A DNA stretch of 64,000 bases from Echinicola sp. 20G (GTDB taxonomy: Bacteria; Bacteroidota; Bacteroidia; Cytophagales; Cyclobacteriaceae): assembly GCF_015533855.1 (NCBI RefSeq), contig NZ_AP024154.1:5415501-5479500 (forward strand), in the 5' to 3' direction. The notes below the pieces were generated by a model that saw only the letters and a list, made by a program, of their open reading frames with translations, made no database searches and was not told where the DNA came from. Positions 7,699-62,818 of this stretch are shown here, in pieces. The first letter of the stretch is position 1. Every line of letters starts with the position of its first letter. Both the position numbers and the translations under genes were made by a program.

Positions 7699-8017
7699 GT
7701 AAATAGATTATTTGGGTTAAACAAAATTGAAATTTTATAATCGACAGGAACCAATTCACCCAAAAGTCAATTAATTATTTCCTGATATAAACAATATTAA
7801 AAATACTGGTAGCGTAATGTATCCTGTTTCCTACTGTATGACTTCCCCTAATTATCATTTTGACAAATAAAAAATAACATAAACATTAATAAGACAATAT
7901 AAAATTAAAAAAATTTTAAAAACAGCAAAATAAAACATAAATAGCTTAAACATAAATAGCTATAATCAAATAAAATTAGGAATCCTCGACATGGTCCCCT
8001 CACTTATTTTTGGGTTT
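7699..8017. other. Intergenic region upstream of SusC 4600-7698
   Basis: AT-rich spacer of 319 bp with no credible reading frame. It holds promoter A; the part near 7860-7980 is a run of A-rich sequence containing a near-repeat of AAACATAAATAGCT (around 7936-7962). I see no clear hairpin terminator for the preceding sulfatase. Confidence 0.6.
7792..7836 (-). promoter_or_regulatory. Candidate promoter/operator A for the SusC-SusD-SusC operon
   Basis: Minus strand AACAGGATAC (plus 7819-7828) followed after exactly 19 bp by TAATATTG (7792-7799), one mismatch from the Bacteroidota -7 box TAnnTTTG. The plus-strand word GTATCCTGTTTCCTACTG (7819-7836) agrees with promoter B at 16 of 18 positions. 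The element takes the place of the -33 box, which suggests an activator site or an unusual sigma recognition. A second possible -7 box, GACTTTTG, lies at 7761-7768. Confidence 0.5.
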
Positions 8018-9502
8018 TCAATCTATTGCAGATGGTTTACATAAAAGTTCAAGAGGGCTTACTTTGTAATTATTTTCCCAATTCCCGATAGGTTTTTTAG
8101 CAGCAAATTCATTGGGACCAAAAAATCTATCCTTAAACCTATTCATCCAAGAATGGGTCAATTGGATAAGTCGTTCTTTTTCTTCTTTATAGTCGGGATC
8201 CTCGAACAAGTTATTCAATTGAAAAGGGTCCTTTTGGCGGTCAAATAGCACGTTGGTAATTTTCAGTGAATCCATGCTCATAGAAAATGTATAATCCTTT
8301 GTTACCACCCCACGCCAATTGAAATTATTCTTTCCTCCTTTACTGTATACCCACAAAGGAACTGAATCTACTGCTTCCTCCTCTTCTTGTATAATGGCTT
8401 TGGATAGATCTTTCCCATCATATTCTTGACCACTATCAATCCCTAAAATTCCCAATACAGTTGGCAAGATATCCAATGTGCCCATAAGAAGTTGTGTAGA
8501 TGAACCGCTGATAAGTTTTTCGGGATACTTCATGATAAACGGAATACGGCTAGAATAATCATGCGCATACTGCTTAGGAAGAGTAGCATTATGGGATTCC
8601 AGCATATCTCCATGGTCAGCAGAAAAAACAGTAAGGGTATTTCCATCTTCCCCGATGTCTTTTAGTTTTTTCATTAGCATGCCAAACGCTTTATCCACAC
8701 CGGAAACCATGGCCATATAACCATGGTACATTCTTTTCCTATCTGGGGAAGGATCTAGTCCTGGTCTTAACCTTACAGAATCTCTATTATAAATGGCCAT
8801 AAGTTCATCCATCGTATCATAGCGATAATGCATTTTACCATCTAAACCTTTAAATTTACCCCAATCGTGAGGGGGGTGCCATGAAACTATTAGGGCAAAA
8901 GGTTTATCCTTATCAATCTTGTCCAGAAAGGATAATGCTTGCTTGGTTTGTCCATACACCTCCCATTCATCAAAAAACTCCTTTTTTCCCTCTTCATTAT
9001 AAAAAAACGCCCTTCCGGGCCTAAAATCTACGTGGCAATTATTCGTAAGAAGAGTTTCAAAACCATATCTCATCTCTCCTTTCGGGATTGGTCTGTCCCG
9101 CTCTCCTCCAAACAAGTGCCACTTCCCTATGTAGGCGGTTTGATACCCCTGGTCCTTTAGGATTTCGCCCATTAACTTGGATTGATTGGGTAAAAGAGGT
9201 GCATCATTTACAAATGCTCCATTTTTTAGAGGATGCATCCCGCTCAATAGCATTCCTCGGAAGGGGGTACAAACAGGCTGGTTAGAAAAGAAGTTTCGGA
9301 ATAATACCCCCTCACTTGCAAACTTATCTAGGTTTGGCGTTTTTACCTGTTGATTTCCATACGCTCCTACCATATCATAAGAATGCTGGTCGGATAGTAC
9401 AATAAGAAGATTGGGTCTTTTCCCGTTTAGTTTACTTTGACGAGCGGTCGAAAGATGAATCACGCAAAAAATCATCCCTAATGATACTATGATATTCCTC
9501 AT
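8018..9502 (-). CDS. S1-family sulfatase (CTPFR active site), secreted
   Basis: Formylglycine-dependent sulfatase that removes sulfate esters from saccharides. From the ATG at 9502 the protein (494 aa) begins with a signal peptide (MRNIIVSLGMIFCVIHLSTA). The metal-binding start NLLIVLSDQHSYD is followed by the active-site motif Cys78-Thr-Pro-Phe-Arg82, a complete CxPxR, then GKWHLFGG and FSADHGDML, which carry further metal and sulfate ligands. A GTG at 9535 extends the frame but would put 11 residues before the signal peptide, so I reject it. Last gene of the GntR-sulfatase-DUF4861-GH105-DUF1080-sulfatase cluster. Its position after GH105 fits desulfation of oligosaccharides in the periplasm; regiospecificity cannot be told. 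Confidence 0.93.
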   Translation of the reverse strand: MRNIIVSLGMIFCVIHLSTARQSKLNGKRPNLLIVLSDQHSYDMVGAYGNQQVKTPNLDKFASEGVLFRNFFSNQPVCTPFRGMLLSGMHPLKNGAFVNDAPLLPNQSKLMGEILKDQGYQTAYIGKWHLFGGERDRPIPKGEMRYGFETLLTNNCHVDFRPGRAFFYNEEGKKEFFDEWEVYGQTKQALSFLDKIDKDKPFALIVSWHPPHDWGKFKGLDGKMHYRYDTMDELMAIYNRDSVRLRPGLDPSPDRKRMYHGYMAMVSGVDKAFGMLMKKLKDIGEDGNTLTVFSADHGDMLESHNATLPKQYAHDYSSRIPFIMKYPEKLISGSSTQLLMGTLDILPTVLGILGIDSGQEYDGKDLSKAIIQEEEEAVDSVPLWVYSKGGKNNFNWRGVVTKDYTFSMSMDSLKITNVLFDRQKDPFQLNNLFEDPDYKEEKERLIQLTHSWMNRFKDRFFGPNEFAAKKPIGNWENNYKVSPLELLCKPSAID

Positions 9503-9588
9503 TATATTTAGGTGTTTTGTATAAAGCTTGATCACGGTGATCAGAAAGAGATAATTAAGTAAGCCAGCCTACAATAATATGGGAGTTG

Positions 9589-10362
9589 CTACTTGGAGAA
9601 ATCCTTTATACGAAGATTCCGCCAGCGAATTTGTCCTTTTCTACCCTGATGTACCTGCAAACCTATGAACCCATCTTTTCTTTCTTGACTTCTTAGGTTA
9701 GCACAAGGAACTCCATTTATCCAAGTCAATATTTGATCTCCCTTTGCATAGATGGTCACCCTATTCCATTCTTGATGGTCAATTATAGCATTTCGAGCCA
9801 TTTGATGTTCTTTCTCTTTAGATAATGGATATATCCAGCCTCCCATAGCTTCACCATAGATTCCACCTGTCCACTTCCTATTAGTGGTTTCCACTTCACA
9901 TTGGTATCCGTAGACCTGTAATAAGGAGCGATCTTTTACTATGGGTCTCTCTCCCTTTTCCAGTGGACGAGTATCTGCCCGAAACATCACACCTGAATTA
10001 CCTAAAACATCCCATTTAAACTCTGCAGTAAAAATAAAATCATCATAAGATGTTTCAGTGACCAAAAAAGAATTAAGCCTTTCCTCAGGATCACAGGTAC
10101 CCACAATATTTTCATCCTCGACGCTATATATCATTGATCCACCTTTCACACTCCACCCTGTAAGGTCTCGGCCATTAAATAAATCCGTCATAATGATTTT
10201 ATTAAGATCCGGTTCCGGTTGGGTATTTTCCTGAAGAGCAGCTGGGTTTATATTCCCTGGCCACTTTTGGTTTACTGATTGAGCTATGGCATATTTCGGT
10301 GGTAAAAAGATTACATAGCATAATAGGCAAACAAAATATGCCCTAAGTTTAAATATTCTCAT
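9589..10362 (-). CDS. DUF1080 (3-keto-disaccharide hydrolase-like) secreted protein
   Basis: Concanavalin/laminarinase-like beta-jelly-roll protein of the DUF1080 family (Pfam name 3-keto-disaccharide hydrolase), 257 aa with an N-terminal signal peptide ending near AIAQ. Family hallmarks seen: LFNGRDLTGWSVKGG (about residues 61-76), FIFTAEFKWD, NSGVMFRADTRP, GEAMGGW and WNRVTIYAKGDQILTWINGV. Members have been linked to 3-keto-glycoside hydrolysis, but many are uncharacterised, so the reaction here is open. It sits between GH105 and a sulfatase in one apparent operon, suggesting a role in oligosaccharide trimming or binding in the periplasm. No lipobox is visible. Confidence 0.85.
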   Translation of the reverse strand: MRIFKLRAYFVCLLCYVIFLPPKYAIAQSVNQKWPGNINPAALQENTQPEPDLNKIIMTDLFNGRDLTGWSVKGGSMIYSVEDENIVGTCDPEERLNSFLVTETSYDDFIFTAEFKWDVLGNSGVMFRADTRPLEKGERPIVKDRSLLQVYGYQCEVETTNRKWTGGIYGEAMGGWIYPLSKEKEHQMARNAIIDHQEWNRVTIYAKGDQILTWINGVPCANLRSQERKDGFIGLQVHQGRKGQIRWRNLRIKDFSK

Positions 10363-10477
10363 TTAATTCAAATTGGTTGATCATGCAATCAATGAAATGC
10401 TTATTGATGACAGTCTAAACTATAAATGTATCTCTTCTAAAAAAGATATTAGATATCCTATCCCTTAATTTCCTTGA

Positions 10478-11578
10478 TCAGCGCTGAACCATTTTCCATA
10501 CCTCTGACCCAGCACTGAGAAATCCCCCTACACCGAAAACGGCTGTAGTTTCAGGATCAAAAGCTACAGGATAACCTCCTACTGGCTGAATATTGATTAA
10601 ACGACCATTGGGCTTTTGCCTTTCGCAAAGTGCTTCCCATCCCTTTCTTACATGGGACTCATAATTATTATGGTCTAAAATCCCATTATTAATTCCCCAA
10701 GCCAAACCGTACACAAAAAATACCGATCCACTAATATCGTCTTGATCAGGATGTAGTGGGTCCAAAAGACTAGGAGCCCATGTTCCATTTACTTTTTGGA
10801 TACGGATGAGTTTAGCAGCCATTTTCTTAAAAACCCCTATGAAATAGTCCCTCTCAGAGTGGTCTTTAGGAAGGAATTGAAGCACTTCCACAAGTGCTGC
10901 CATTACCCATCCGTCTCCACGTGCCCAAAAGACTTTTTGTCCCCCTGGTGACACTTTGCTGATATCTCTTTTATCATGAAAATAGAGGCTATCTTTTTCG
11001 GACCAATACCATTCGTGCGACTGTTTCCATTCTTGGATCATATAGTCCAAATATTTCTTTTCTTCTGTTACAGCGCCTAAACCTGTCCACACCGGTGCTG
11101 CCATGTAAAGAGCATCACTCCAGTTCCAACGTTCACGGTTATACCTTAATCTTATCTTTCCATCTTCCCCTTGGATGGTCTTTTCAGGTGGGTTTGCCAG
11201 AATCCAATCAAATTCACCCTTCAACTTTGAAATGGTCTGGGGATTTTTTGTTAGCTGGTAAATCTTAATATAGGATAACCCAACAGCATGGTCGTCTGCA
11301 TGGTATTTTCGAGGCCCTATTTTCCAGTTATTTTGTATTCCTACATCTAGGATAGTTTGTAGATAATTTTCGTCTTCAGTGATTTCGTAAAGGTCTGTAA
11401 GCCCCATATAATACGGTGCCCAATGCCATTCCAATTCTCCGAAAGGAGCTGGGTTATGGCTTTGCCAGGTTGCTGCTTTTTCCAATCTATCAATGATAAC
11501 TTCGGGTTGAAAAACATTTTCCTTGGAATGGGTATTTAACCATAACAACCATAATATAAATCCTAGTTGTACGTTCAT
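10478..11578 (-). CDS. GH105/GH88-like unsaturated uronyl hydrolase
   Basis: Hydrolase that removes the 4,5-unsaturated uronic acid from the non-reducing end of lyase products by hydrating the double bond. The 366-residue (alpha/alpha)6 barrel shows the GH105 marks: HADDHAVG (residues 93-100), WNWSDALYMAAPVW with the probable catalytic Asp155, and FWARGDGWVMAALVEVL (217-231). The N-terminus is hydrophobic, consistent with export, but the cleavage site is unclear. It stands between DUF4861 and DUF1080 in the GntR-led operon. Together with the heparinase-type lyase and GH78 enzymes nearby this supports a uronate- and rhamnose-containing substrate such as ulvan or rhamnogalacturonan. GH88 versus GH105 cannot be settled by eye; the WaRGdGW motif favours GH105. 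Confidence 0.9.
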   Translation of the reverse strand: MNVQLGFILWLLWLNTHSKENVFQPEVIIDRLEKAATWQSHNPAPFGELEWHWAPYYMGLTDLYEITEDENYLQTILDVGIQNNWKIGPRKYHADDHAVGLSYIKIYQLTKNPQTISKLKGEFDWILANPPEKTIQGEDGKIRLRYNRERWNWSDALYMAAPVWTGLGAVTEEKKYLDYMIQEWKQSHEWYWSEKDSLYFHDKRDISKVSPGGQKVFWARGDGWVMAALVEVLQFLPKDHSERDYFIGVFKKMAAKLIRIQKVNGTWAPSLLDPLHPDQDDISGSVFFVYGLAWGINNGILDHNNYESHVRKGWEALCERQKPNGRLINIQPVGGYPVAFDPETTAVFGVGGFLSAGSEVWKMVQR

Positions 11579-11593
11579 ATTCTTAATTCTTAT

Positions 11594-12475
11594 TTAATCG
11601 TTCTCTGATACGTTTTGCAGATAATTACTCCAGTCAGCAGAGGTTTTAATAGTCCCTTCCTTTTCCCAACCATAACCCGCCTTATATTCGACTTTTCCTA
11701 AAGCATCTGTAGAAGTAATCAGTAAGGCGTTCCCCTCATCTTTTCGTATGGGCTCAAGTAGCATATATGTACTAATTTTATTAGGGTCCATAACAACACC
11801 TGTTCCTACACCAAAACCATCGATGATTTCCCAACAAGTCATATAACCATTTGACAGATCATTTGTCACTTCAGCTTTTCCATCATGTGTAGTAATTCCT
11901 ATGGCTATGGGTAAGCCTACGGCCAATTTGCCGTTTTTCCAGAAAGTAGAGGCAACAGAATAAAACCGGTCTCCCAAATGGATGGATATCTGCTTTTCCT
12001 CCTTGTAAATATCTCCTTTATACTCCCAATCATAGGTCAAAACAAAAATCGTCTCTCTTTTCTTACTTTTGATAATCTTCCACTCGGTATAAGTATTGGA
12101 AGTAATCAGCGTATCTTCAATCCATAGGCCCAGTCCTCCACATCCCCGAGAAGATCCAACATGATACGGATCATACCCCTCCCCATGGTCTCGGTGGTAG
12201 GAATACTTTGCTTCATTATCTATGTACCATTTATCAATGATAGGATAATCTACCCGCTTGAGCCAACAATCAATCCCGCTATCTTCCGTTCTTTGGCGCA
12301 TAGTAGGTCCATAGGCCCTGAAGGCTACCAGGTCATTTTCCCAAGCAAAGTCGTCTGCCCGCTCAGGGACATGCCTAGCATAAGTTCTAATTTGAGCCGT
12401 GCGATGAACGCTGCATGAGATGAGCAGCAGTACTGTAACTACATTCCCAAGCAGCTGAAATAGAGGTTTTACCAT
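11594..12475 (-). CDS. DUF4861 lipoprotein
   Basis: I assign this to DUF4861 from the overall pattern: RTYARHVPERADDFAWEND near the N-terminus, VAFRAYGP, then a beta-rich body. From the ATG at 12475 it is 293 residues with a lipoprotein signal, lipobox LLISC (Cys21). The 14-residue extension to 12517 would spoil the signal and is not used. DUF4861 proteins are frequent beside lyases, GH105 and GH88 in Bacteroidota polysaccharide loci; their reaction is not established to my knowledge. Here it is encoded 16 bp before GH105, so it probably works on the same unsaturated oligosaccharides, as an enzyme or as a binding protein. Confidence 0.8.
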   Translation of the reverse strand: MVKPLFQLLGNVVTVLLLISCSVHRTAQIRTYARHVPERADDFAWENDLVAFRAYGPTMRQRTEDSGIDCWLKRVDYPIIDKWYIDNEAKYSYHRDHGEGYDPYHVGSSRGCGGLGLWIEDTLITSNTYTEWKIIKSKKRETIFVLTYDWEYKGDIYKEEKQISIHLGDRFYSVASTFWKNGKLAVGLPIAIGITTHDGKAEVTNDLSNGYMTCWEIIDGFGVGTGVVMDPNKISTYMLLEPIRKDEGNALLITSTDALGKVEYKAGYGWEKEGTIKTSADWSNYLQNVSEND

Positions 12476-12638
12476 GCTATAGCGAAAAAGTAATTGTATT
12501 TTATATTCATTGATCATTTTTTATCATTTCTCTATCTGCCACACTTTTCGGAAACCTATTGAAGCCTAATTAAATTGCATGACAAAGCTACTCCCCTTTA
12601 TCAAATAAGCCGCTTGCATAAAGATGATTCCGCGATAG

Positions 12639-14273
12639 TCAGGGGCGATTCTTTAAGGGATAACGACTGTTGAGATTTGCCGGCATTGCTGAAGGTGTAT
12701 ATTCAGCCCCCGTCCCCCGGTCTCCTTGGGGTTTATAATGAGGACTATTGTGCGTACTCTCCGGCCTGTAATTACTTTTTCCACTTTCAGTCTTCCACCA
12801 CATCAACCATTGCATATCCAGCTCATTGACCTTTTCGGGATATTGACTGGATAAATCACGTGTTTCCATGGGGTCTGTTTCTGTATCATATAATTCCCAT
12901 CCGTTTCCATCGACTTCCACCAAACTCCACTTATCCGTTCGTATTGCACGGTTATCCATAAATTGAAAATACATAGGTGATTTTCTCTCCCATTCTTCCC
13001 CTTTGAGTAAGGCTGCAAAAGACTCCCCTGCCACCACTTTTGTATTATTTTGATCCGTACTTTTTTTATCCATATTGCCAGCGACATCCAAGAAAGTAGG
13101 AAAAACATCGATCACATGTAGTGGATCAAAAAGTAAAGTTCCACTATTACGAATTGTTTTAGGCCACCAGGCAATGGCACCGGTTTTTACCCCTCCCCCA
13201 TGCTGGCTTATTTTATAGAGTCTCCTTGGCGTAACACTGGCATAAGCCCAACCTGTTCCGGGCTGATAGTTTGACCCAATATCACCGGGTAGCACTCCCT
13301 TTTGGAGCATAACACTGTCCATCACTGAAAAAGAATCTGTTCCGTTGTCACTAAGGAATATCACCAAGGTATTTTCAGCGAGACCGTTTACTTTTAAACT
13401 TTCCATCAATTTGCCTACTCCATTGTCCATGCGCTCTACCATTGCGGCATAAACAGACATTCTTAGGTCCTCCAAATCCTTTTGGGCAAAACTCAAGCTT
13501 TCCCATTCTGGAAGGTTTTGTGGATAACCAGGAAGAGGGGTGTTTTCATTGACCAGCCCTATGGCTTTTTGTCTTTTCACACGAGCCTCCCTAATAGCCT
13601 GCCAACCTGAAAGATAGGTCCCGCGGTATTTCATAATGTCTTCCTTGGGGGCCTGTAGGGGATTATGGGGGGACTGGTAGCTCAAATAAAGAAAAAAGGG
13701 TTGGTCTTTATGGCCTGCCCTTTCATTAACAAATGATACGGCCCGCTCACTAAATTCATCCGTACTGTAAAATTCATTGTCAAAATCTTTATATATTTTT
13801 TTGTTCTCCCGATAGTCGGAACTGCCCTGAAAATAGGTAGAATAGCCTCCCAAAAAACCAAAAAAATAATCAAAGCCTTTTTCATTGGGTTCACCATTTA
13901 AATGCCACTTACCGATAAGCCCAGTGCTGTATCCTTCTTTTTTTAATTCTTGAGCAATATTCTCCCCATGTTCTATCCCATAACCGACTTTAGGCCACCA
14001 TTGTCCTGTGAGTAGTGAACTTCTTGAAATCACGCACATTCCTGCATTGTTCATATTGGGAAGCCTCACTCCTTCATTGGCTATACTGTTCAGAAAGGGA
14101 GTTTGAATTTCACCGCCGAAACAGCCTAAATCACTATATCCTAAATCATCAGCGACTATTAGAATTATATTGGGTTGTTTTATGGTAATCGATTCTTTCT
14201 TTGTACAAGAAAAAAAAACAGGCAGAAAAGACATGATGGCAAAAAATAGGTTAAATGACATGATTTTATTCAT
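12639..14273 (-). CDS. S1-family sulfatase with unusual CVISR active-site motif
   Basis: Sulfatase fold lipoprotein. From the ATG at 14273 the protein (544 aa) has lipobox VFFSC (Cys23), then NIILIVADDLGYSDLG with the metal Asp pair, GKWHLNGEP, VIFLSDNGTDS and a C-terminal ELYDTETDPMETRDL region, all normal for S1 sulfatases. The active-site motif reads Cys80-Val-Ile-Ser-Arg84, so the usual Pro (or Ala) at position +2 of CxPxR is Ile. The DNA was checked directly at about 14022-14045. Formylglycine conversion may be altered, or this may be a known subfamily variant. The longer frame to 14339 adds 22 residues before the signal and is rejected. Second gene of the GntR-led operon. Confidence 0.9.
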   Translation of the reverse strand: MNKIMSFNLFFAIMSFLPVFFSCTKKESITIKQPNIILIVADDLGYSDLGCFGGEIQTPFLNSIANEGVRLPNMNNAGMCVISRSSLLTGQWWPKVGYGIEHGENIAQELKKEGYSTGLIGKWHLNGEPNEKGFDYFFGFLGGYSTYFQGSSDYRENKKIYKDFDNEFYSTDEFSERAVSFVNERAGHKDQPFFLYLSYQSPHNPLQAPKEDIMKYRGTYLSGWQAIREARVKRQKAIGLVNENTPLPGYPQNLPEWESLSFAQKDLEDLRMSVYAAMVERMDNGVGKLMESLKVNGLAENTLVIFLSDNGTDSFSVMDSVMLQKGVLPGDIGSNYQPGTGWAYASVTPRRLYKISQHGGGVKTGAIAWWPKTIRNSGTLLFDPLHVIDVFPTFLDVAGNMDKKSTDQNNTKVVAGESFAALLKGEEWERKSPMYFQFMDNRAIRTDKWSLVEVDGNGWELYDTETDPMETRDLSSQYPEKVNELDMQWLMWWKTESGKSNYRPESTHNSPHYKPQGDRGTGAEYTPSAMPANLNSRYPLKNRP

Positions 14274-14386
14274 TCTATACGTTCTTTTCAATACTATATC
14301 TGCCCAAATTTGAGACAGGTATATAAGACTGTTCAACAATTATTAGATTTGATTCCTAATTTGATAAATTCTTTTGAAAGCGTATG

Positions 14387-15430
14387 TTATATACTTCCTC
14401 GGTCAATAAAGTCAAAATAATTTTGTACCGTCTCACATTTATTCTTCTTCAGCATATATGCAGCTGAGTCTGCCATCACTTCAAAGTCGGTACTCAGTAC
14501 GGATATTTCCATTACTTTTTTCAAAGGGGTTTCATTGTAGGAAATCACACCTAGATCAAGACCTAATCGAAGTTCACTTCCTTTTACTTGTTGTAAAAAG
14601 TTAATTAGGTCTGACTCATCTATAATAATATAGGCATCTCCTTTCTGGAACTCCATGTAGGGATATATTTTATCAATTATTTCAGCATCACAGTTTATAT
14701 CTTTACAGAATTTGGTAAAACCATTTTTAATCTCATTTGGATAAGGATAAAATGGGTTTTCAGGAAACACCAATACTATTTTCTTATATTTTTTTTTATT
14801 TATAATTGCAGAGCATAAGGCATAATAGATGTCCCATTTAAAATCTTGGTAAATACATGGTACTAACTCTCCTAATTCTGGAAGGTATTTATCCATTAAT
14901 AACAATTGTCCTGCAGGCATAGCCTTGAAGTAGTCTAACACTTTGTCAACCACATCCTGTTTATCATTAAAGTGAGGCATGACCACGAAGTGATCATAGA
15001 TCAATTGATTTTCCTTTAATATTTCGCGTAGGTTATTGGCACTGCAATGATGCACCTTTAAATCCACATGGAAGTCCGCTCCTACAGCATCAACAAATGC
15101 GTTAAAAATTTTAAGTTTATAATTGCTCAGCTTATTTAAAACGATTAACACCTTTGTTTTGGACAAATTAACGTTACGAGCTACAAAAAAACCTTTACTC
15201 ATAACTGAGACAACTATTTTTTTTTCACGTAGGTAATTCAATGTTTTGACAATGGTGTCTTTTGAAAGTCCAGTGATATCTTTTAATTCACTAATTGAGG
15301 GAAGTTTTTCTCCAATTTCTAAATCCTTTCTTTCTATAGATTGGATAATTAAATCGGATAGCTGCTTGTATTTTGGGACCCTTGAGGATTCGTATAATAA
15401 ACTTTCAAAAATTTTTGATTCGCAAATCAT
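14387..15430 (-). CDS. GntR-family regulator with sugar-binding-like C-terminal domain (copy 1)
   Basis: DNA-binding regulator of 347 residues. The winged helix is at about residues 18-85 (VPKYKQLSDLIIQSIERKD, LPSISELKDITGLSKDTIVK), followed by a C-terminal LacI/periplasmic-binding-like domain (KVLIVLNKLSNYKLK ... MADSAAYML) suited to binding a sugar or sugar phosphate. It leads the sulfatase/GH105 operon and has a same-length paralogue at 38474-39517 that is very similar throughout. The leader of about 300 nt contains promoter B and an inverted repeat at 15508-15533 that could be an autoregulatory operator. Similar architecture is known for the Bacteroides fucose regulator FucR. The ligand is unknown; rhamnose or a uronate derivative would fit the context. 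Confidence 0.88.
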   Translation of the reverse strand: MICESKIFESLLYESSRVPKYKQLSDLIIQSIERKDLEIGEKLPSISELKDITGLSKDTIVKTLNYLREKKIVVSVMSKGFFVARNVNLSKTKVLIVLNKLSNYKLKIFNAFVDAVGADFHVDLKVHHCSANNLREILKENQLIYDHFVVMPHFNDKQDVVDKVLDYFKAMPAGQLLLMDKYLPELGELVPCIYQDFKWDIYYALCSAIINKKKYKKIVLVFPENPFYPYPNEIKNGFTKFCKDINCDAEIIDKIYPYMEFQKGDAYIIIDESDLINFLQQVKGSELRLGLDLGVISYNETPLKKVMEISVLSTDFEVMADSAAYMLKKNKCETVQNYFDFIDRGSI

Positions 15431-15723: not shown

Positions 15724-15768
15724 TAAATATAATTATTTCGCTTTTGAATGGTAACCTGTATCCTACTG
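15724..15768 (-). promoter_or_regulatory. Candidate promoter/operator B for the GntR-sulfatase-GH105 operon
   Basis: Minus strand TACAGGTTAC (plus 15751-15760) followed after exactly 19 bp by TATATTTA (15724-15731), one mismatch from TAnnTTTG. The plus-strand word GTAACCTGTATCCTACTG (15751-15768) differs from promoter A at only two positions. The implied 5' leader is roughly 290 nt. Confidence 0.5.
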
Positions 15769-15842
15769 CTCTAAAAATCTTTAAGAACAGAAAAGTCGAT
15801 TTAGCCAGTTAGCTATAAAATTAAAAGTACTGTTACCTAAAA

Positions 15843-19544: not shown

Positions 19545-19549
19545 AAATT

Positions 19550-43966: not shown

Positions 43967-44473
43967 TAATTTAAAACTCTCTTGGTTATTTTTGTTCATT
44001 GCTAATTTCTCGACCTCTTCCACTTCCTATTGGTATAACTTTGGCAAGTTATACCATGCTGTTATTAAAAAAATATGATCAACTCTACCTACTCAATGAT
44101 TAGGTAAATGGTTTTGCCCTACTTCTATTTTGAATTTAACTAATTTTCATTTATGAAATATCCCGTGCACCTAAATTTTTGAAGCAAATTAGCTCAATTA
44201 ACATTGATAAATATAACAAAAATGTAAAATTGCAGTCGCTATTATTTCCCCTTAATTCTGTTGAATTTAATAATACATGAAATTTAAATAATAGAATAAA
44301 TAACATTCTAGATTTATAGAAATAAATATGTCAATCATTTCATAAAATGACAAAAAGAGTAATTCCACTTGGAACTACTCTTAATATAATTACTATAACC
44401 CTAAACTTTTCTCACCTTCAGGATTTCATCTAAATAAAGAAGACCTTTAGCGAAATATTTTTTAAATAGTTTG
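43967..44473. other. Intergenic region upstream of the HTCS gene
   Basis: About 500 bp, AT-rich, no credible gene. It holds the HTCS upstream region and, at its right side, the terminator at 44355-44382 of the GH5-GH3 unit. No copy of the shared promoter element was found. Confidence 0.5.
44355..44382 (-). terminator. Terminator after the GH5/GH3 unit
   Basis: Stem AAGAGTA (44355-44361) / TACTCTT (44376-44382) continued, after one mismatch, by TTCC/GGAA with loop ACTT. On the minus strand it is followed by TTTTTG. It lies about 90 nt after the GH3 stop at 44474. Confidence 0.7.
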
Positions 44474-55551: not shown

Positions 55552-55553
55552 AA

Positions 55554-57662
55554 TTATCTTACAAAGGCAGCAGCTACACCACCATCCACATTGAGAATGT
55601 TACCTGTTGATTTGCTTAGGTCACCGCCTACAAAGGCGAATACACCGTTAGCAATATCGTCCACACCTATGATCTCGTTCAAGATCGTTCTTTTGGCATA
55701 GAAAGATGGTAATTCTTCTACTTTGATTCCATAGGCTTTGGCTCTTCCTGCAGCCCATTCACCTTCCCATATCTTACTTCCTTCGATCACAGCATCTGGA
55801 TTCACCACGTTTACGCGGATTTTATCCTTGCCCAGTTCCGCTGCCAACAACCTGCTCATGTGGACTTGTGCAGCTTTAGCTGTTCCATAGCCTACATTGT
55901 TTGGCCCTGATACCAAGGCATTCTTACTGGCTATATTGATGATATCTCCACCCAGTTTTTGCTCTCTCATGATTTCCACGGCAGCTTTGGAAACGGCAAA
56001 CTGGCCTTTCACCAAAATATCCTGAAGCAAATCCCAGTCTTTTTCTGAGGTCTGTTCGATCGGTTTGGAAATGGCCAATCCTGCACAGTTCACAATGATA
56101 TCTACTCCGCCAAACTTCAGCGTTGCGGCTTTTAGTGCGGCAACAATATCATCACCTTTGGTCACGTCCATGATGGCTCCCGCTCCTACATCATTGGAAT
56201 AAGTAGCTACTGCTTCATCCAGACGGTCTTGATTGATATCAGTGATAAATACACAGGCGCCTTCACTGGCCAATTTGTCGGCAATAGCCTTTCCGATACC
56301 GCCAGCACCACCAGTCACCAAAGCAATCTTTCTAGAAAGTGGCTGCTCTTTGGGCATTCTTTGAAGCTTTGCTTCTTCCAACAACCAATATTCAATATCA
56401 AAAGCTTCCTGCAAAGGCAATGAAACGTATTCAGATACCGCCTCAGCACCGCGCATCACATTGATGGCGTTGATATAAAACTCACTGGCCACCCGTGCAG
56501 TCTGTTTATTCTTTGCATAAGAGAACATACCCACACCAGGCCATAAAATAATTACCGGATTGGCATCTCTAATCGCAGGACTGTTGTCACGCTTGTGGTC
56601 TTCGTAATATTTGGTATAGTAAGCCCTGTACTCTTCAAAATCCTTGTCCAGTTTGGCTTTGATTTCCTCCGCATTGCTCAAGTCCACATCTGCTGGAAAA
56701 TCCAATACCAAAGGTCTGATTTTAGTTCTAAGGAAGTGGTCTGGACAGCTGGTTCCCAATGGAGCTAACTTTTCCAGGTCATGACTGTTAGCAAACTGCA
56801 ACACTCGCTCATCATCGGTAAAATGGCCCACCATTCTGTTATACCCTGAAGCCAAACCCCTCAATACTGGAGCGATCTTGGCCGCTTGGTCTTTCCTTGC
56901 TTCTGGCGCCAGCGATTCAATTTTCTGACCACCAAATACTGGACGGTCCTTGCCATAGTTTTCTTCCAGATAGATGGAAGCCTTATCGATTACCTCCAAG
57001 CTGTTGATGTAACATTCGTAAGCGGTATCCCCCCAAGTAAACAATCCATGTCCACCCAACATGATTCCTCGGATGCCAGGATTTTCATTCAAAGCTTTCT
57101 CCAATTGTAAAGCAAGGTCAAACCCCGGCTTCTGCCATGGCACCCAAGCAATCTGTCCTTCAAAAAGCTCTTGTGTAATCTTTTCACCATCCTTCGCTGC
57201 CGCAATGGCAATCGCCGCATCAGGGTGAAGGTGGTCAATATGTTTGAAAGGCAAAAAAGCGTGTAATGGGGTATCAATGGATGGTGCCTTTGAGTCCAAA
57301 TCATAAATACAGTGATTGAAAAGACCTACCATCTCATCTTCAAACTCCAAACCTCTGTATACATTTTTCAGGGCATGCAATTTCTCCACATAAAGTCCTG
57401 CAAGTCCGCTCTTTTTCAAAGTCCCGATGTCACCACCAGAACCTTTTACCCACATCACTTCCGTTTCCTTTTTGGTCAAAGGATCTGTCTCCATGGTCTT
57501 GCAGCTGGTGTTTCCTCCACCATAGTTGGTTATCCGAAGGTCAGCACCCAAAATGTTTGACCGGTAGATCAAAAGGGCCACTTCATCTCCTTCTAGTTCC
57601 TGGGCCTTTTGGTCATCCCAGAGGTAATTCACATGCTTAAATGTTCTTTCTAATGTGCTCAT
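55554..57662 (-). CDS. rhaD: Bifunctional rhamnulose-1-phosphate aldolase/short-chain dehydrogenase
   Basis: 702-residue fusion. The class II aldolase part (about 10-400) has the zinc-type histidines His144, His146 (HIDHLHPDA) and His205 (GGHGLFTW). The SDR part (about 440-702) has TGGAGGIG (450-457), Ser579, Tyr592 and Lys596. It should cleave L-rhamnulose 1-phosphate to dihydroxyacetone phosphate and L-lactaldehyde, and the dehydrogenase domain should oxidise the lactaldehyde to lactate. Such fusions are widespread in bacteria with the RhaI/RhaM system. First gene of the rhaD-rhaI unit; promoter C with a perfect TACTTTTG box is 42-49 bp upstream. Confidence 0.93.
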   Translation of the reverse strand: MSTLERTFKHVNYLWDDQKAQELEGDEVALLIYRSNILGADLRITNYGGGNTSCKTMETDPLTKKETEVMWVKGSGGDIGTLKKSGLAGLYVEKLHALKNVYRGLEFEDEMVGLFNHCIYDLDSKAPSIDTPLHAFLPFKHIDHLHPDAAIAIAAAKDGEKITQELFEGQIAWVPWQKPGFDLALQLEKALNENPGIRGIMLGGHGLFTWGDTAYECYINSLEVIDKASIYLEENYGKDRPVFGGQKIESLAPEARKDQAAKIAPVLRGLASGYNRMVGHFTDDERVLQFANSHDLEKLAPLGTSCPDHFLRTKIRPLVLDFPADVDLSNAEEIKAKLDKDFEEYRAYYTKYYEDHKRDNSPAIRDANPVIILWPGVGMFSYAKNKQTARVASEFYINAINVMRGAEAVSEYVSLPLQEAFDIEYWLLEEAKLQRMPKEQPLSRKIALVTGGAGGIGKAIADKLASEGACVFITDINQDRLDEAVATYSNDVGAGAIMDVTKGDDIVAALKAATLKFGGVDIIVNCAGLAISKPIEQTSEKDWDLLQDILVKGQFAVSKAAVEIMREQKLGGDIINIASKNALVSGPNNVGYGTAKAAQVHMSRLLAAELGKDKIRVNVVNPDAVIEGSKIWEGEWAAGRAKAYGIKVEELPSFYAKRTILNEIIGVDDIANGVFAFVGGDLSKSTGNILNVDGGVAAAFVR

Positions 57663-57703
57663 TATATTAATTGCTTTATGTTATTATCCTATCATACTTT
57701 AAT

Positions 57704-57750
57704 CAAAAGTATTGGTATGTAAGTTAATATGTATCCTGTTTCGTGTTGCG
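57704..57750 (-). promoter_or_regulatory. Candidate promoter/operator C for rhaD-rhaI
   Basis: Minus strand AACAGGATAC (plus 57731-57740), then exactly 19 bp, then TACTTTTG (57704-57711), a perfect TAnnTTTG box. The predicted start is near 57697, giving a leader of about 35 nt. Two near-identical words, ATCCTATCATACTTT (57686-57700) and ATCCTAGCATATTTT (57761-57775), flank the promoter 75 bp apart. Confidence 0.6.
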
Positions 57751-57857: not shown

Positions 57858-58172
57858 CTAAGGTAAATGAAACACCTCCTCAAGATTAATTGAAATTGGG
57901 CTATTATCAGCATTGGTTTCCATAAGTTCGCTCATATGGTCCCACCATTTCCTACATATGGCTGTTTTAGCAATAGACTCCCACTGCTCTTCGGAAGATA
58001 TCTCTGCATATCCGAACAAATAATTGGTTTCCTTGTCATGAAAAATACTATAGTTGTTGACTCCATGGCTTTTTAACACCTGCTTTAATTCTTCCCAAAT
58101 TGGATTATGTCTGCGTATATATTCTTCCAGTTGACCTGAATACAACTTCATTTTAAATGCTTTTCTAAACAT
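57858..58172 (-). CDS. rhaM: L-rhamnose mutarotase
   Basis: Small cytoplasmic enzyme of 104 residues that interconverts alpha- and beta-L-rhamnose to supply the isomerase. RhaM/RhaU family marks: MFRKAFKMKLYSGQLEEYIRRHNPIW with the catalytic His22, NYSIFHDKETNYLFGYAEI and RKWWDHMSELM. Length is standard. It is 40 bp after the sulfatase gene and followed by the rhaD promoter region, so it probably shares a transcript with GH78 and the sulfatase. Confidence 0.94.
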   Translation of the reverse strand: MFRKAFKMKLYSGQLEEYIRRHNPIWEELKQVLKSHGVNNYSIFHDKETNYLFGYAEISSEEQWESIAKTAICRKWWDHMSELMETNADNSPISINLEEVFHLP

Positions 58173-58212: not shown

Positions 58213-59538
58213 TTATTTTCTAAATGTCTTTGCTTTATTGGTTAATTCTTGGACCAATTGAGGATGAGCGGCACTGATTTCCCTTTGTTCATAGGGATCT
58301 TCAAAGATGTCAAAAAGCTCTATCTTTTCACCTGGCTTATTTTTCTCGTTAGGCACGATTAATTTATAGGGCTTCTGATAGACTATATTATAGAAAAGAT
58401 CATCTTCAGTGGAATAAAAATCATGATCATAAATCTCACCATAAATATTTTCCCTATGCTCAATGGCCTGTTGGTCCAAGAAATTAATACCTTCCATTTC
58501 GTTTGGTTTATCAATATCCAACAAATTTAAAATGGTAGGAACAATATCAATACTGCTTACTAAAGAAGAGGTGTCCATAATTGGGGTAATTTGGCCTTTC
58601 CATTTGATCATGATAGGGGTTCTCATTCCCAAATCATAAGGAGCCCTTTTGGATACCTTGTCATAGCCGGAATCCCCCTCGTTCTGTACCCATCCATTGT
58701 CACAAACATAAACGAAAATAGTATTTTCCGTAAGCTCCTTTTGATCGATATAATCCATTAATTGTCCACATGTGCTGTCAAACCATTCGCACATGGCCCA
58801 GTATTTGGCAACATAGGTTGAAGAAGTTTTGCCAAGGTATTTTTGATACAAGCTATCCGGTGGGGTATGTGGCCCATGCGGCATCATCGGCGCATACCAC
58901 AAGAAAAATGGCTTTTCTTTCTCTAGGGCATAATCGATATAGCTAAATACTGAATCCATACCATTTCTTCCAATCTTTAGCCCTTCATCTCCATGTCTTC
59001 CACCTCGAGTGATATCCCCATGGGTCATTCCCCGATCAAATCCGCCATTCTTAAAGTTGCCTATCCACCATTTACCTGCTTGAAATGATAGATATCCTTT
59101 AGGTTTTAACAAATCGGGCAAGGTTTCCAACTTTTCAAAATCATTGATTAATGGCTTAAAGTTTTCTCCTCTGACTTCCTTCCTTTTAGCAGGATTATCG
59201 GTAGGCAAAATTCTATCATTCCCCAATATACCGTTCTGTTTAGGATAAAGTCCCGTAATCAAAGAAGCCAGGGAAGGAGAACACAATGATGTCGGCACAT
59301 AACCTCTGGTGAACGTACGGCCCTCTTCTGCCAACCTATCGATATTGGGCGTTTCAATTTGATCATGCCCCATAAAACTGTAGTCTGTCCAGGCTTGGTC
59401 ATCGGATAATATTAATACGATATTTGGCAACTTCTGATCTGTCACTTGTTTCTGCTCAGCAGTAGCTTTCTTTTCATTACAGGATGCAAGGCTACCTAAT
59501 ACCGTCATTAAACTGAATAATGCTATGGCTCTTTTCAT
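58213..59538 (-). CDS. S1-like sulfatase with CSPSL motif, lipoprotein
   Basis: 441-residue sulfatase-fold lipoprotein (lipobox GSLASC, Cys20). NIVLILSDDQAWTDYSF, GKWWIGNF, VYVCDNGWVQ and LFDIFEDPYEQREI are normal sulfatase blocks. The active site reads Cys86-Ser-Pro-Ser-Leu90: the Arg of CxPxR is Leu. I checked the DNA (about 59265-59295). CxPSL variants occur in some sulfatase subfamilies of Bacteroidota and Planctomycetes as far as I recall, so this may be active with a different maturation or substrate contact. It sits between GH78 and rhaM, suggesting desulfation of rhamnose residues, for example rhamnose 3-sulfate. Confidence 0.9.
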   Translation of the reverse strand: MKRAIALFSLMTVLGSLASCNEKKATAEQKQVTDQKLPNIVLILSDDQAWTDYSFMGHDQIETPNIDRLAEEGRTFTRGYVPTSLCSPSLASLITGLYPKQNGILGNDRILPTDNPAKRKEVRGENFKPLINDFEKLETLPDLLKPKGYLSFQAGKWWIGNFKNGGFDRGMTHGDITRGGRHGDEGLKIGRNGMDSVFSYIDYALEKEKPFFLWYAPMMPHGPHTPPDSLYQKYLGKTSSTYVAKYWAMCEWFDSTCGQLMDYIDQKELTENTIFVYVCDNGWVQNEGDSGYDKVSKRAPYDLGMRTPIMIKWKGQITPIMDTSSLVSSIDIVPTILNLLDIDKPNEMEGINFLDQQAIEHRENIYGEIYDHDFYSTEDDLFYNIVYQKPYKLIVPNEKNKPGEKIELFDIFEDPYEQREISAAHPQLVQELTNKAKTFRK

Positions 59539-59829
59539 ACTTGTTTTATTTATTAGTTAAGGATTGATCATCCTATGTTCGAGATTTAAAACCGTCTCCG
59601 CATAGTGTTCGGGAAATGCACTGCGAGAGGTCAACAATTTTTTATATATTAAAAAGCTGAAGGGCAGACATCAGTCCCCCCTCTTTAGCTCCTAGTCCCT
59701 TTAAGTATGAACTCCTGCGCAGATTGAACACCTTGTATATAGCAGGCGTGAGCGGGGTTTTGGCAGTAAGTGCCGTAGCAGCCTCTGTATTCCGGGATTG
59801 CCTGCCCCATTACAAAACCAGGTAAATCC
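59539..59829. other. Spacer between GH78 and sulfatase, with a GC-richer stretch
   Basis: 291 bp. The part from about 59690 to 59815 is visibly richer in G+C than other spacers here and stays open on both strands for short frames, yet none has a start, signal or recognisable motif. It may be a decayed gene fragment or an interspersed repeat. Confidence 0.35.
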
Positions 59830-62592
59830 CTATTCCATACTATAGTTAATTTGGTAAACTCCTGGTCCAACCTCAAAGTGGAGTGCATTTAGGGATTTCG
59901 AAATCTCCACGGTATAATTATCCTTTGCAAAACCACCGTTTACGAAAAGTCCACCTACATTGCTTATGGGCAGCTCTATTTTTGCGGCGGTATTAGGTGG
60001 AACAGTGGCATGCAGAGTAAATTCCTTTCCTATTATTTTCCAAGCACTTTTGACCTCTCCATAGATGGTATTTACAGAGGCAGCAGCTGAACTAAGTGGA
60101 TCATGTGGAAAAGGAGCTATACTTATTTTTTTATAGCCTGCCTCCAATGGAGAAATACCGGCAATCCTTTCGTACATCCACTGGCCGATAGCCCCATAGG
60201 CATAATGGTTTAGGCTGTTCATTCGCTGAGGATTAAATCCATCTTCCTTGCTATAACTATTCCAGCGCTCCCAGATGGTGGTAGCTCCCTGATTAATGGA
60301 ATAAAACCAAGAAGGATAGGTTTCATTGAATAGCAGTTGATACATTAATTCAGTTTCGCCTATTTCATCCAGCACTTTGGCCAATAAAGGTGTCCCTAAA
60401 AAACCTGTCCGAAGATGATCGTCTGCCTCATTGATCTTTGCCACTAAGTTCTTCCCTGCCTTTTCTTTTTTAGCTTCAGGCAATAGATCAAAAGCCAAGG
60501 CCAATAAATAGGTTGTCTGTGTGGGCATAACGCCAACAACCTGCCCATCGGAATCAAAGAATTGCTGATCAAATGCTTGGGCTACCTTCTGGTACAATTC
60601 CCAATATTCTTTGCTTTCATGGGTTTTTCCCAAAGTCTGCGCAGTCTGGGCAGTAAGTTTCGCAGAATAGGCAAAAAAAGCTGTCCCTATCAATGCTGGA
60701 GATGTATCACCTCTGTTATCACCTGTTTCTGGGAATGGCTGAAGCCAGTCAGCAAAGGAATTCATGTTTGAAATAAAACTTTCGGCATTCATTTGGTGAT
60801 GAGCTACCCACTTTTTCATCATTTCATAATTATCCTCTAAGATGGATTTGTCTCCCGTATATCGGTACATTTCCCAAGGGATTATCGTGCATACATCTCC
60901 CCAGCCAGAACTTACCTTATTATTCTTAAGGACATCCGGAACTACAAAGGGAATTCCACCATTTTCATATTGAGATTCTCGGACACTTTGTAACCAACTG
61001 GCCCAAAAAGGATATACCTCAGCATTAAACAATGAGGTTGGGCCAAATACCTGTGCATCTCCCGTCCAGCCCAGTCGTTCATCACGCTGGGGACAATCGG
61101 TAGGTACGTCAAAGAAATTCCCCCTCAGCCCCCAAACGATATTACTTTGCAACTGATTAAGTTTTTCATGGGATGATGAAAAGCTTCCATTTGACTCAAA
61201 ATCTGAATGTTGAACCACTCCCCGCACCCAATTTTTTGAAGGTGACTTGCTTTGGTCGAATCCGCTTAACTCGATAAATCGAAATCCATGAAAAGTGAAT
61301 TTAGGCATCCAATCTATCACCCCCGATTCCTTGGCTATATAATAGTCTGTTGATAATGCTCCTCGATAATTTTCCGTATAAAAAGCCCCATCAGGACTGA
61401 GCATTTCAGCAAACCTAACCTTTAAGGTATCCCCCTTCTTCATAGGTACCTTAAGATGTGGCACTCCGACCATATTTTGACCTAAATCATAAACTGTTGT
61501 ATTATCATTTGACTTTACTTCTTTGGGACTTAGGTAGATTTTTGGTTTTATGGAGTGGTGGCGTTTAGGTTCCAAACGGATCTTTGGATCAATAGCCTCT
61601 GACTCCACTTTGCTCCAAGTTTGATCATCATATCCATTTTTACTCCATTGACCTAGTTCATAATGGGCATCGTATACTTCCCCATCATAAATCTCGGCTG
61701 TTCTAATTGGTCCATTAGTGGTACCTTTCCAGCTCTCATCAGTGGTAATGACAGACTGAGACCCATCCTGGTGGACCACTTCAAGTTGGCACAGAACTTT
61801 GGGAGATGGAGTATCCTTCCAGAATGACCTTTCCCATCCTAATCTACCCGAATACCATCCTGCAGCCAATTCGACCCCAATGGTATTCTGTCCTTCCCTT
61901 ATAGCATCTGCCACATCATACGTAAGGGTTTCTATACGTTCCGCATACGGGGTCCATCCTGGAGGCATAACATCATCACTAACATCTTGCCCGTTAATGC
62001 GAACATCAAACACCCCTTTGGCAGTTATATAAAGTCTCGCCCGAATAATATCAGTGGGCAGTTCAAAACTTTTTCGAAGATATTGTGGTCTATGAATAAT
62101 ATTATCCTTCGTCCCCAATACCTTCTCTTCGGCTGTAGGAAGGCCAATCCATTCCCCCTTCCAATCGGAATTTTTCAATAAGCCCAATTCAAAAGTATTG
62201 ATATCGCTCCATCCTGTTGGTGAATCATCCTGGTTCCAATTCATCACCTGCCAAAATACTTTTTGTCTTGAACCCAATGGCGCTCCAGCATAGTCTATCC
62301 AAGCCGATTGTTCACTGGGAACTTTTTTGGAATCCCACAAATCTGCTTTATCCGGTAATAATTCTGGACTGCTGGCTACCAAAAGCCGGTAAGCACTCTG
62401 ACTATTTATATCTTCAGCTACCGGAAGCTTCCAAGAAAAAGTAGGCTTGGGGTCATAAAAACCTAAAGGGTTAACAAAACCCTCCGAAACAGTCAAGCTA
62501 CATGGTTCTGTCACCGATTCTTTTTTACAGGCAACAAAAACAGAGAGGATTAGCAACCCCCACAAAAAAATCTGTATATGCTTATTTACCAT
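59830..62592 (-). CDS. GH78 alpha-L-rhamnosidase, lipoprotein
   Basis: Exo-alpha-L-rhamnosidase of 920 residues with lipobox SVFVAC (Cys22). Beta-sandwich domains at the N-terminus (SLTVSEGFVNPLGF, TYDVADAIREGQNTIGVELAAGWYSGRLGW) are followed by the (alpha/alpha)6 barrel holding DCPQRDERLGWTGDAQVF with the probable general acid Glu505 and Asp512, TTIWERWNSY with the likely base Glu and SLNHYAYGAIGQWMYERIAGI. The C-terminal beta-domain is complete. It should release rhamnose from the non-reducing end of desulfated oligosaccharides. Promoter D lies 190-226 bp upstream, and the sulfatase and rhaM follow. Confidence 0.94.
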   Translation of the reverse strand: MVNKHIQIFLWGLLILSVFVACKKESVTEPCSLTVSEGFVNPLGFYDPKPTFSWKLPVAEDINSQSAYRLLVASSPELLPDKADLWDSKKVPSEQSAWIDYAGAPLGSRQKVFWQVMNWNQDDSPTGWSDINTFELGLLKNSDWKGEWIGLPTAEEKVLGTKDNIIHRPQYLRKSFELPTDIIRARLYITAKGVFDVRINGQDVSDDVMPPGWTPYAERIETLTYDVADAIREGQNTIGVELAAGWYSGRLGWERSFWKDTPSPKVLCQLEVVHQDGSQSVITTDESWKGTTNGPIRTAEIYDGEVYDAHYELGQWSKNGYDDQTWSKVESEAIDPKIRLEPKRHHSIKPKIYLSPKEVKSNDNTTVYDLGQNMVGVPHLKVPMKKGDTLKVRFAEMLSPDGAFYTENYRGALSTDYYIAKESGVIDWMPKFTFHGFRFIELSGFDQSKSPSKNWVRGVVQHSDFESNGSFSSSHEKLNQLQSNIVWGLRGNFFDVPTDCPQRDERLGWTGDAQVFGPTSLFNAEVYPFWASWLQSVRESQYENGGIPFVVPDVLKNNKVSSGWGDVCTIIPWEMYRYTGDKSILEDNYEMMKKWVAHHQMNAESFISNMNSFADWLQPFPETGDNRGDTSPALIGTAFFAYSAKLTAQTAQTLGKTHESKEYWELYQKVAQAFDQQFFDSDGQVVGVMPTQTTYLLALAFDLLPEAKKEKAGKNLVAKINEADDHLRTGFLGTPLLAKVLDEIGETELMYQLLFNETYPSWFYSINQGATTIWERWNSYSKEDGFNPQRMNSLNHYAYGAIGQWMYERIAGISPLEAGYKKISIAPFPHDPLSSAAASVNTIYGEVKSAWKIIGKEFTLHATVPPNTAAKIELPISNVGGLFVNGGFAKDNYTVEISKSLNALHFEVGPGVYQINYSME

Positions 62593-62781
62593 GGAAATGA
62601 TCTTTATTCTTTTCAGACTTTATCTTATACCTATTGGCCTATCACCACTTCCCTCCACCTTGCTCCCTCCTAAGTTCCTTGGCCAAAATCACCTCAATTA
62701 TTTAGATTCTCCTTTATTGATTAAATACACCATGACGGATATGAGGTTTAGAAATATGTAGGATACTGATTGACCCTAAAT

Positions 62782-62818
62782 CAAATATATATGGAATTCC
62801 ACTTTTATGTATCCTGTA
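62782..62818 (-). promoter_or_regulatory. Candidate promoter/operator D for GH78
   Basis: Minus strand TACAGGATAC (plus 62809-62818), exactly 19 bp, then TATATTTG (62782-62789), a perfect TAnnTTTG box. Same arrangement as promoters A, B and C. Confidence 0.58.

Follow-up and report, generated by a model that had tools for sequence, protein, structure and literature searches.

A 10-bp tandem-repeat operator at rhamnose promoters of Cytophagales and its probable role in an ulvan-type locus of Echinicola sp. 20G

We analysed a window of 64,000 nucleotides from the marine Echinicola sp. 20G (contig NZ_AP024154.1, positions 5,415,501 to 5,479,500), in which four minus-strand promoters carry the element WACAGGWTAC at a fixed distance from a TAnnTTTG box, the common -7 box. 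Judged from the sequences compared here, the element is the right, promoter-proximal half of a longer putative operator made of 10-bp tandem repeats, of which an earlier sequence-only reading had seen the right half alone, and the further promoters not at all. In our favoured and fairly probable explanation, a duplicated GntR-family rhamnose regulator and a diverged operator link an ulvan-type polysaccharide utilization locus (PUL) to a second copy of the rhamnose genes rhaD, rhaI and rhaK (rhaDIK), with activation from the -33 position. The operator, its spacing, its conservation, its co-occurrence with the regulator gene and the regulator phylogeny are established by computation.

The operator in the window, the genus and the order

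Read directly, the four elements are AACAGGATAC, TACAGGTTAC, AACAGGATAC and TACAGGATAC, and after exactly 19 bp each is followed by a box (TAATATTG, TATATTTA, TACTTTTG and TATATTTG, respectively), two boxes being perfect and two having one mismatch, all just as the sequence-only reading had described (Table 1). They precede the SusC/SusD unit (operator 1), a GntR gene with its sulfatase/GH88 unit (operator 2), rhaD-rhaI (operator 3) and the GH78-sulfatase-rhaM unit (operator 4); these units had also been named correctly, except that the gene called GH105 matches GH88 in Pfam. Operators 1 and 2 keep the CAGTA of the first repeat copy, operators 3 and 4 less of it, and judged by eye the operator variant of the PUL is CWAGTAGGAWACAGGWTAC-like. 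A fifth WACAGGWTAC at window positions 6355-6364, inside susC, lacks the box architecture and is regarded as chance.

Within the window the 10-mer was seen 5 times against 0.40 expected (at most 4 in 100 shuffles). Genome-wide it has 52 matches, fewer than the 103 of a reversed control, and therefore carries no meaning alone. Combined with the box at 19 bp (at most one mismatch), a pattern itself derived from the four window sites, it has 5 matches in 5.79 Mb against 1 for the reversed control, all 5 between 5394759 and 5478318 and within 84 kb of one another and the locus, so that the scan revealed no scatter over many unrelated genes. The fifth match (5394759, plus strand) lies 73 bp before an open reading frame (ORF) of 722 amino acids (aa), roughly 21 kb beyond the window's left end. 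A wider core, [AG]CAGG[AT][TC]A[CG], is present at 24 places, both strands counted, in the 204 kb around the window; 7 of the 24 have TAnnTTTG (at most one mismatch) at 19 bp, all 7 intergenic, and 30 other spacings gave 6 boxes altogether. Three of the seven sites lie outside the window, at about 5394760 (the 722-aa ORF), 5481852 (a second GH78 gene with its own site, GCAGGATAG-N19-TAATATTG) and 5529202 (a 1175-aa ORF). A relaxed scan, run without a shuffled or chance control, adds 5402036 (upstream of a GH106 gene), 5483285, 5503978 and 5508762. Support independent of the four window sites comes from the fifth genomic site (5394759), from seven matches in Echinicola pacifica DSM 19836 (G005) and from the 19-bp spacing at rhaD across the order.

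The E. pacifica genome holds 7 strict architecture matches against 2 in its reversed control. All 7 are intergenic and precede orthologs of GH78, rhaD, the 722-aa ORF, a PUL GntR and a 639-aa protein, with one of the remaining sites upstream of a SusC-like ORF and one upstream of an ORF without a match; by the relaxed scan, the orthologs of the window SusC and the window GntR have a site as well. Operators 1 and 2 thus have orthologous sites at G005:C13:263220 and G005:C13:269406 (both relaxed scan), operator 3 at G005:C2:827181 and G010:C1:5956361, and operator 4 at G005:C2:819854, while a site paralogous to operator 2 (G005:C2:785715) lies upstream of another GntR. In G010, another Echinicola genome, a single strict site upstream of the PUL rhaD (AACAGGATAG) stands out from background solely by that position, and one relaxed site lies upstream of GH78. 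Conservation upstream of orthologous rhaD and GH78 genes, on which the sequence-only reading had staked its proposal, is therefore found in Echinicola. Strict PUL-type sites number 5 in Echinicola sp. 20G (G000), 7 in E. pacifica and 1 in G010, and 0-1 in each of the other 8 Echinicola genomes. In E. pacifica the relaxed scan also returned pairs of operator-like sites placed back to back, one on each strand at a distance of some 20 bp, between divergent genes (C13:231933/231954 and 271945/271965; L075, L077).

Across the order Cytophagales, rhaD (E <= 1e-200) was found in 109 of 291 genomes, and some form of the operator precedes a rhaD in all 11 Echinicola genomes. Among 112 upstream regions (115 less the repeated loci L041, L042 and L050; 13 are from Echinicola) the core is present in 90 and absent in 22, and 86 of the regions with it remain distinct after four repeated stretches are dropped. 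With the core picked without regard to the box, TAnnTTTG (at most one mismatch) stands at exactly 19 bp in 46 of these 86; the next commonest spacings, 10 bp (8 regions) and 29 bp (5), are each one repeat off, and any other spacing from 8 to 31 bp accounts for at most 2. A table of sites picked by core plus box was excluded as spacing evidence. The repeat at rhaD promoters of Cytophagales has the short form CAGGATAGTACAGGACAG-N19-TAnnTTTG, and the full consensus of 33 non-Echinicola promoters, selected for fit to both halves and the box after removal of near-duplicates and weak scores, is ACAGGATAGTACAGGACAG-N19-TAnnTTTG, two tandem copies at a 10-bp pitch.

A profile of these 33 promoters was run on the 11 Echinicola genomes (E <= 10) and gave at least 15 matches in Echinicola sp. 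20G, where 150 of 1335 first-pass candidates were scored. Their contexts, in a list that leaves out 1196289 and 465398, include the housekeeping rhaD, a site at 1811200 and ORFs in the 1.91-1.96 Mb region; the 5529202 site is also listed (E 2.6), and the matches at 1762969 and 4217556 overlap opposite-strand ORFs (98 and 129 aa). An operator-like match (C1:1744815, minus strand, L070; 13.6 bits, E 0.52) stands directly before a lactate-oxidation-type operon that is divergent to the gene preceding rhaD, and the pathway of bifunctional RhaD yields lactate. Another operator-like site in the same genome (C1:3670502, minus strand, L221) precedes the SDR gene of an L-fuconate-type operon, with the same site in G007 and G003 (L226, L227) and more matches in G004 and G006; the element may therefore serve other 6-deoxyhexoses too.

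GntR regulators and duplicated rhamnose genes

The window encodes two GntR-type helix-turn-helix (HTH) regulators, WIN1 and WIN2, in both of which the N-terminal GntR winged HTH (PF00392) scores above the cut-off. A protein of this kind, 344-364 aa long, adjoins rhaD in other genera: of 115 fetched rhaD loci, 32 have a GntR within 440 bp (divergent in 20, upstream and codirectional in 5, downstream in 7), and none of the 16 Echinicola loci is among these 32. When the 291 genomes were searched with the GntR protein encoded at 1811230 as query (E <= 1e-40), 100 had both GntR and rhaD, 9 rhaD only, 9 GntR only and 173 neither, among the matches listed. At least 72 of 114 rhaD loci have a GntR at 6 kb or less, and at least 48 have one at 1 kb or less, counts that exclude Echinicola sp. 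20G and eight second-ranking GntR rows, none of them on its genome's rhaD contig.

Operator presence follows the regulator gene. Of 88 rhaD loci in genomes with the GntR, 66 have the operator, compared with 0 of 7 loci in genomes without it, at a threshold that shuffled sequences reach in 0.5% of cases; at thresholds of 14 and 15 the counts are 55/88 vs 0/7 and 39/88 vs 0/7. This comparison covers 95 of 116 rhaD matches, with 20 unfetched ones and the window copy outside it. In a tree of the regulators, WIN1, WIN2 and their orthologs in E. pacifica and G010 group in a 100/100 clade whose sister is the protein encoded at 1807086 in Echinicola sp. 20G, and this clade is nested in a 99/99 group with the rhaD-adjacent protein of L083. 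On this phylogeny the window GntRs derive from rhaD-linked regulators. GntRs of the PUL type, 58-100% identical to WIN1, are confined to 3 of the 11 Echinicola genomes, namely the three with PUL sites (G000, G005 and G010). The earlier proposal that a single regulator family joins uptake to rhamnose catabolism is thereby supported, and among the candidates it had left side by side GntR is by far the best supported, with an AraC-type regulator of the two kinds searched and a special sigma factor disfavoured.

Within Echinicola sp. 20G, the 1811230 protein is the one closest to a rhaD-adjacent regulator (67% to that of G019). Its gene precedes a 482-aa ORF, and the 1811200 site, whose box has two mismatches, lies between them. 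ORFs with a similar N-terminus, judged by eye, are found near rha genes in six loci (L083, L084, L085, L086, L087 and L089); the 482-aa ORF gave no Pfam or NCBIfam match at the cut-offs used, and a rhamnose transporter would be our guess. A third GntR branch (L096) is represented by a gene at 5529321-5530364, beside the site C1:5529202 (ACAGGATAG-N19-TAGTTTAG) before the 1175-aa ORF, and E. pacifica, too, has a GntR of that branch, and there the same site likewise precedes a 1175-aa ORF (C2:784447, 787465). The recognition helix reads TIVK in the PUL-clade GntRs and TVEK or TVER in the rhaD-linked ones shown, with 1807086 intermediate (TVVR). A recognition-helix code for the last operator base (C vs G) was rejected, given that TVEKAY goes with ...ATAC in L112 and with ...ACAC in L101.

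Echinicola sp. 20G carries a second rhaD-rhaI-rhaK set at C1:1747577, outside the PUL. Its rhaD promoter, TCAGTACACA ACAGGACAG-N19-TAAATTCG, has the same spacing, and the element predates the PUL. The rhaD-rhaI copies share 97.9% DNA identity over 3413 bases in a match that stops 16 nt before the ATG, and the rhaD-rhaI-rhaK stretches (C1:1747560-1752460, L070, and window positions 52495-57678) share 97.9% and 97.6%; between the rhaD-rhaI copies of other genomes identity is 98.0% in G010 and 78.9% in E. pacifica. Because the coding parts are alike while the promoters differ, gene conversion or repeated recent copying of rhaD-rhaI under separate promoters is suggested.

Promoter mechanism and competing explanations

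We propose that two 10-bp tandem repeats end where the -33 box belongs, 19 bp before the -7 box, and that across Cytophagales this operator precedes rhaD and would be bound by a GntR-HTH regulator, here named RhaR-G. The regulator would have been duplicated in Echinicola, and the two window paralogs, with a slightly changed operator, would control the sulfated-rhamnose PUL together with the second rhaDIK copy. With rhamnose or a rhamnose-derived ligand, the regulator would activate from a class-II position and substitute for the missing -33 contact. Binding by GntR, the nature of this ligand and activation rather than repression are the most likely reading of the sequence data. In other promoters of Echinicola sp. 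20G, TTG occurs at 18-23 bp in 17 of 54 against 7.0 in shuffled sequences (p 0.001), pooled over these spacings as the 54 were noisy at single ones and a set of 21 promoters was uninformative. The element occupies this very stretch, in agreement with the earlier claim that it takes the place of the -33 box. None of the 33 operators has TTG at -33, which is no separate test because they were chosen for a core at that place. As the right repeat fills the -33 place and the spacing is exact to the base, an activator contacting RNA polymerase is favoured.

The same operator and GntR protein could instead belong to a repressor that, like AraR of Bacillus subtilis, blocks RNA polymerase at -33 until rhamnose releases it, a reading we consider unlikely but far from negligible. 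An operator over -33 is well placed to block, AraR, an arabinose repressor, is among the PDB matches, and one PUL GntR gene is itself preceded by the operator, as is often the case for autorepressors. Repression, however, does not require base-exact spacing to the -7 box, and since the operator replaces the -33 TTG that is enriched in other promoters, the bare promoter should be weak. A quite improbable reading is that the PUL sites only resemble the rhaD operator and are read by the hybrid two-component system (HTCS) of the window or by the AraC-type protein at C1:5489558. The HTCS is encoded in the PUL, HTCS motifs are direct repeats (PMC3878776), and a PUL variant poorly recovered by the rhaD profile (see below) would suit another reader. 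The two motifs described in that source are, however, 12- or 14-bp sites with 9- or 6-bp spacers rather than repeats of 10-bp pitch, and 12-14-bp repeats with a 6-9-bp spacer were not found at our operators. Across the order the same operator, equally spaced, is found at housekeeping rhaD, which the HTCS does not explain; for the PUL by itself the HTCS keeps some probability. Two AraC queries, run over flanks of 1.5 to 20 kb at 115 rhaD loci, located an AraC-type gene at just two of them, next to rhaD in L089 and some 6 kb off in L090, and neither of these rhaD genes has the element. An argument from HTCS absence in E. pacifica was dropped, as an ortholog lies at C2:842230, just outside the fetched stretches. 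The AraC-type protein (C1:5489558-5490448, plus strand, L010) resembles a protein encoded next to the second rhaD copy of G017 (L089), which lacks the operator, and the type is possibly a second kind of rhamnose regulator in Cytophagales.

A special sigma factor reading WACAGGWTAC as its own -35 element, proposed on the sequence alone, would account for the fixed spacing and the displaced -33 box. We nevertheless rate it as very improbable, given that the -7 box is of the ordinary kind; a TAnnTTTG-like box is present at all seven sites, which were chosen for it, the four window boxes being known from the outset, and no alternative -10/-7 element was seen there. The conserved part is moreover a tandem repeat of 19-20 bp, longer than a -35 element, and operator presence tracks the GntR gene. 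Chance similarity of A+T-rich promoters would fit the bare 10-mer, which is not enriched genome-wide, and is contradicted by the fixed spacing, intergenic position, conservation and low shuffle rates; its probability is negligible, and the element as a chance 10-mer is ruled out by the enriched architecture.

Several observations weigh against GntR activators as readers of all these sites. GntR regulators usually bind palindromes (PMC4494728), whereas this operator is a direct repeat. The sugar-binding domain PF13377 stays below threshold in WIN1 (4.9e-5; 23.9 vs 26.5 bits) and is absent in WIN2, and the sole sugar regulator among the PDB matches, AraR (4egy, E 0.0035, fifth of six), is named a repressor. 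The operator is missing from 22 of 88 rhaD loci of GntR genomes at the looser threshold and 33 of 88 at a stricter one, the GntR-less comparison consists of 7 loci, and the genomes are related, so that co-occurrence counts are not independent and Fisher p values overstate independence. The profile of non-Echinicola promoters lists one of the four window sites (rhaD, 5473203, E 2.1); the PUL sites are therefore taken as a diverged subtype, which itself argues against one protein reading all sites. The closest HTCS orthologs (67-70%) occur in the same three genomes as the PUL GntRs, G000, G005 and G010. Finally, among 39 genomes scanned, G025 from another family has 5 architecture matches against 0 in its control, for which coincidence or a different role of the element could account; 2 of the 5 are the same sequence on two contigs. 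The joint occurrence of HTCS and GntR in three genomes cannot choose between them; the order-wide data can, and point to GntR. A more far-reaching statement has about an even chance of being right: that Cytophagales use an undescribed GntR-family rhamnose activator on two 10-bp tandem repeats in place of -33, and that PULs were captured by joint duplication of regulator, operator type and catabolic operon into a parallel, separately tuned circuit, with rhaDIK copies nearly identical and promoters different.

Gene content of the locus and known systems

By domain matches the locus holds GH78 and GH106 alpha-L-rhamnosidases, sulfatases, GH88, GH3 and SusC/D-like genes, which point to a sulfated rhamnose-rich polymer, e.g. 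ulvan, as the substrate. It is likely a PUL for such a polymer, and Echinicola sp. 20G is described as degrading ulvan (PMC9182395). Among the locus proteins scanned, a subset of all, no ulvan lyase was found.

Table 1. Operators, regulators and genes of the window, in window coordinates unless marked C1.
Feature	Position	Strand	Details
SusD-like protein	2708..4603	-	PF07980 3.5e-39; behind operator 1
SusC-like TonB-dependent transporter	4600..7698	-	Plug and CarboxypepD_reg domains; behind operator 1
Operator-promoter 1	7792..7838	-	half-site ACAGTAGGAA, core ACAGGATAC (10-mer 7819-7828), N19, box TAATATTG (7792-7799)
Sulfatase, 3-keto-disaccharide hydrolase, GH88, DUF4861, sulfatase	8018..14339	-	unit behind GntR gene
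GntR-HTH regulator WIN1	14387..15430	-	347 aa; PF00392 3.4e-9; itself behind operator 2
Operator-promoter 2	15724..15770	-	half-site GCAGTAGGAT, core ACAGGTTAC (10-mer 15751-15760), N19, box TATATTTA (15724-15731)
GntR-HTH regulator WIN2	38474..39517	-	347 aa, 65% identical to WIN1; PF00392 3.9e-9
Hybrid two-component system (HTCS)	39779..44023	-	Reg_prop, HisKA, HATPase, RR, HTH_18
rhaK, rhamnulokinase-type FGGY kinase	52495..53820	-	FGGY domains; best NCBIfam match rhamnulokinase, well under cut-off
rhaI, L-rhamnose isomerase	54268..55551	-	best NCBIfam match 544.5 bits, under equivalog cut-off 646.75
rhaD, bifunctional rhamnulose-phosphate aldolase/short-chain dehydrogenase	55554..57662	-	PUL copy
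Operator-promoter 3	57704..57750	-	half-site GCAACACGAA, core ACAGGATAC (10-mer 57731-57740), N19, box TACTTTTG (57704-57711)
rhaM, L-rhamnose mutarotase	57858..58172	-	unit behind operator 4
Sulfatase	58213..59538	-	PF00884 2.9e-46; unit behind operator 4
GH78 alpha-L-rhamnosidase	59830..62592	-	unit behind operator 4
Operator-promoter 4	62782..62828	-	half-site CTAGACCAAT, core ACAGGATAC (10-mer 62809-62818), N19, box TATATTTG (62782-62789)
Second GH78	63115..63999	-	cut by window end; 946 aa in genome, start C1:5481455

AraR of B. subtilis, a GntR-family protein of the AraR subfamily, resembles the regulators studied here in its GntR winged-helix N-terminus and its nearby sugar genes; for the LacI-type sugar-binding domain WIN1 gives a weak, sub-threshold match and WIN2 none. 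The AraR operator, in contrast, is palindromic, while here a 10-bp direct repeat at -33 precedes rhamnose genes and probably serves activation. Since the consensus is a 10-bp direct repeat rather than a palindrome, we file the regulators as GntR-family and not as typical AraR. GntR regulators of the NanR, NagQ, FarR and MocR types have other effector domains and pathways. Like the regulators proposed here they are described as placing a GntR HTH on direct repeats (PMC4494728), although the repeats are others.

The AraC-type RhaR of Bacteroidales (BT3768) likewise controls rhamnose catabolism in the same phylum (PMC3870299, PMC3878776) but belongs to another protein family, and its direct repeat has a 21-bp period against 10 bp here (PMC3870299); AraC genes of the kinds searched lie near rhaD at two of the 115 loci examined here. 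The HTCS regulons of Bacteroides PULs share direct-repeat motifs before PUL genes (PMC3878776), and an HTCS is present in this PUL as well, but the described cases have longer half-sites and pitch and do not cover a housekeeping rhaD. Ulvan PULs reported for Echinicola sp. 20G come from the same genus and combine GH78 and GH88 in ulvan-tied loci, with a lyase presumed to be PL25 (PMC9182395) that has no counterpart among the proteins scanned here. A comparative study of rhamnose regulons describes AraC, DeoR and LacI regulators, with the AraC type in Bacteroidales, and its main text never uses the string "gntr" (PMC3870299); in the open literature searched, we found no GntR rhamnose regulator of Bacteroidetes. 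We class our finding as sugar regulation by the GntR family in which both operator and placement are unusual. It yields a specific hypothesis on the regulator and operator behind rhamnose use in Cytophagales, beyond the described AraC, DeoR and LacI regulators. If true, it would be a case of a PUL coupled to a monosaccharide pathway through duplication of regulator and operator, and would point to a way in which a GntR protein could activate from -33 of a Bacteroidetes promoter.

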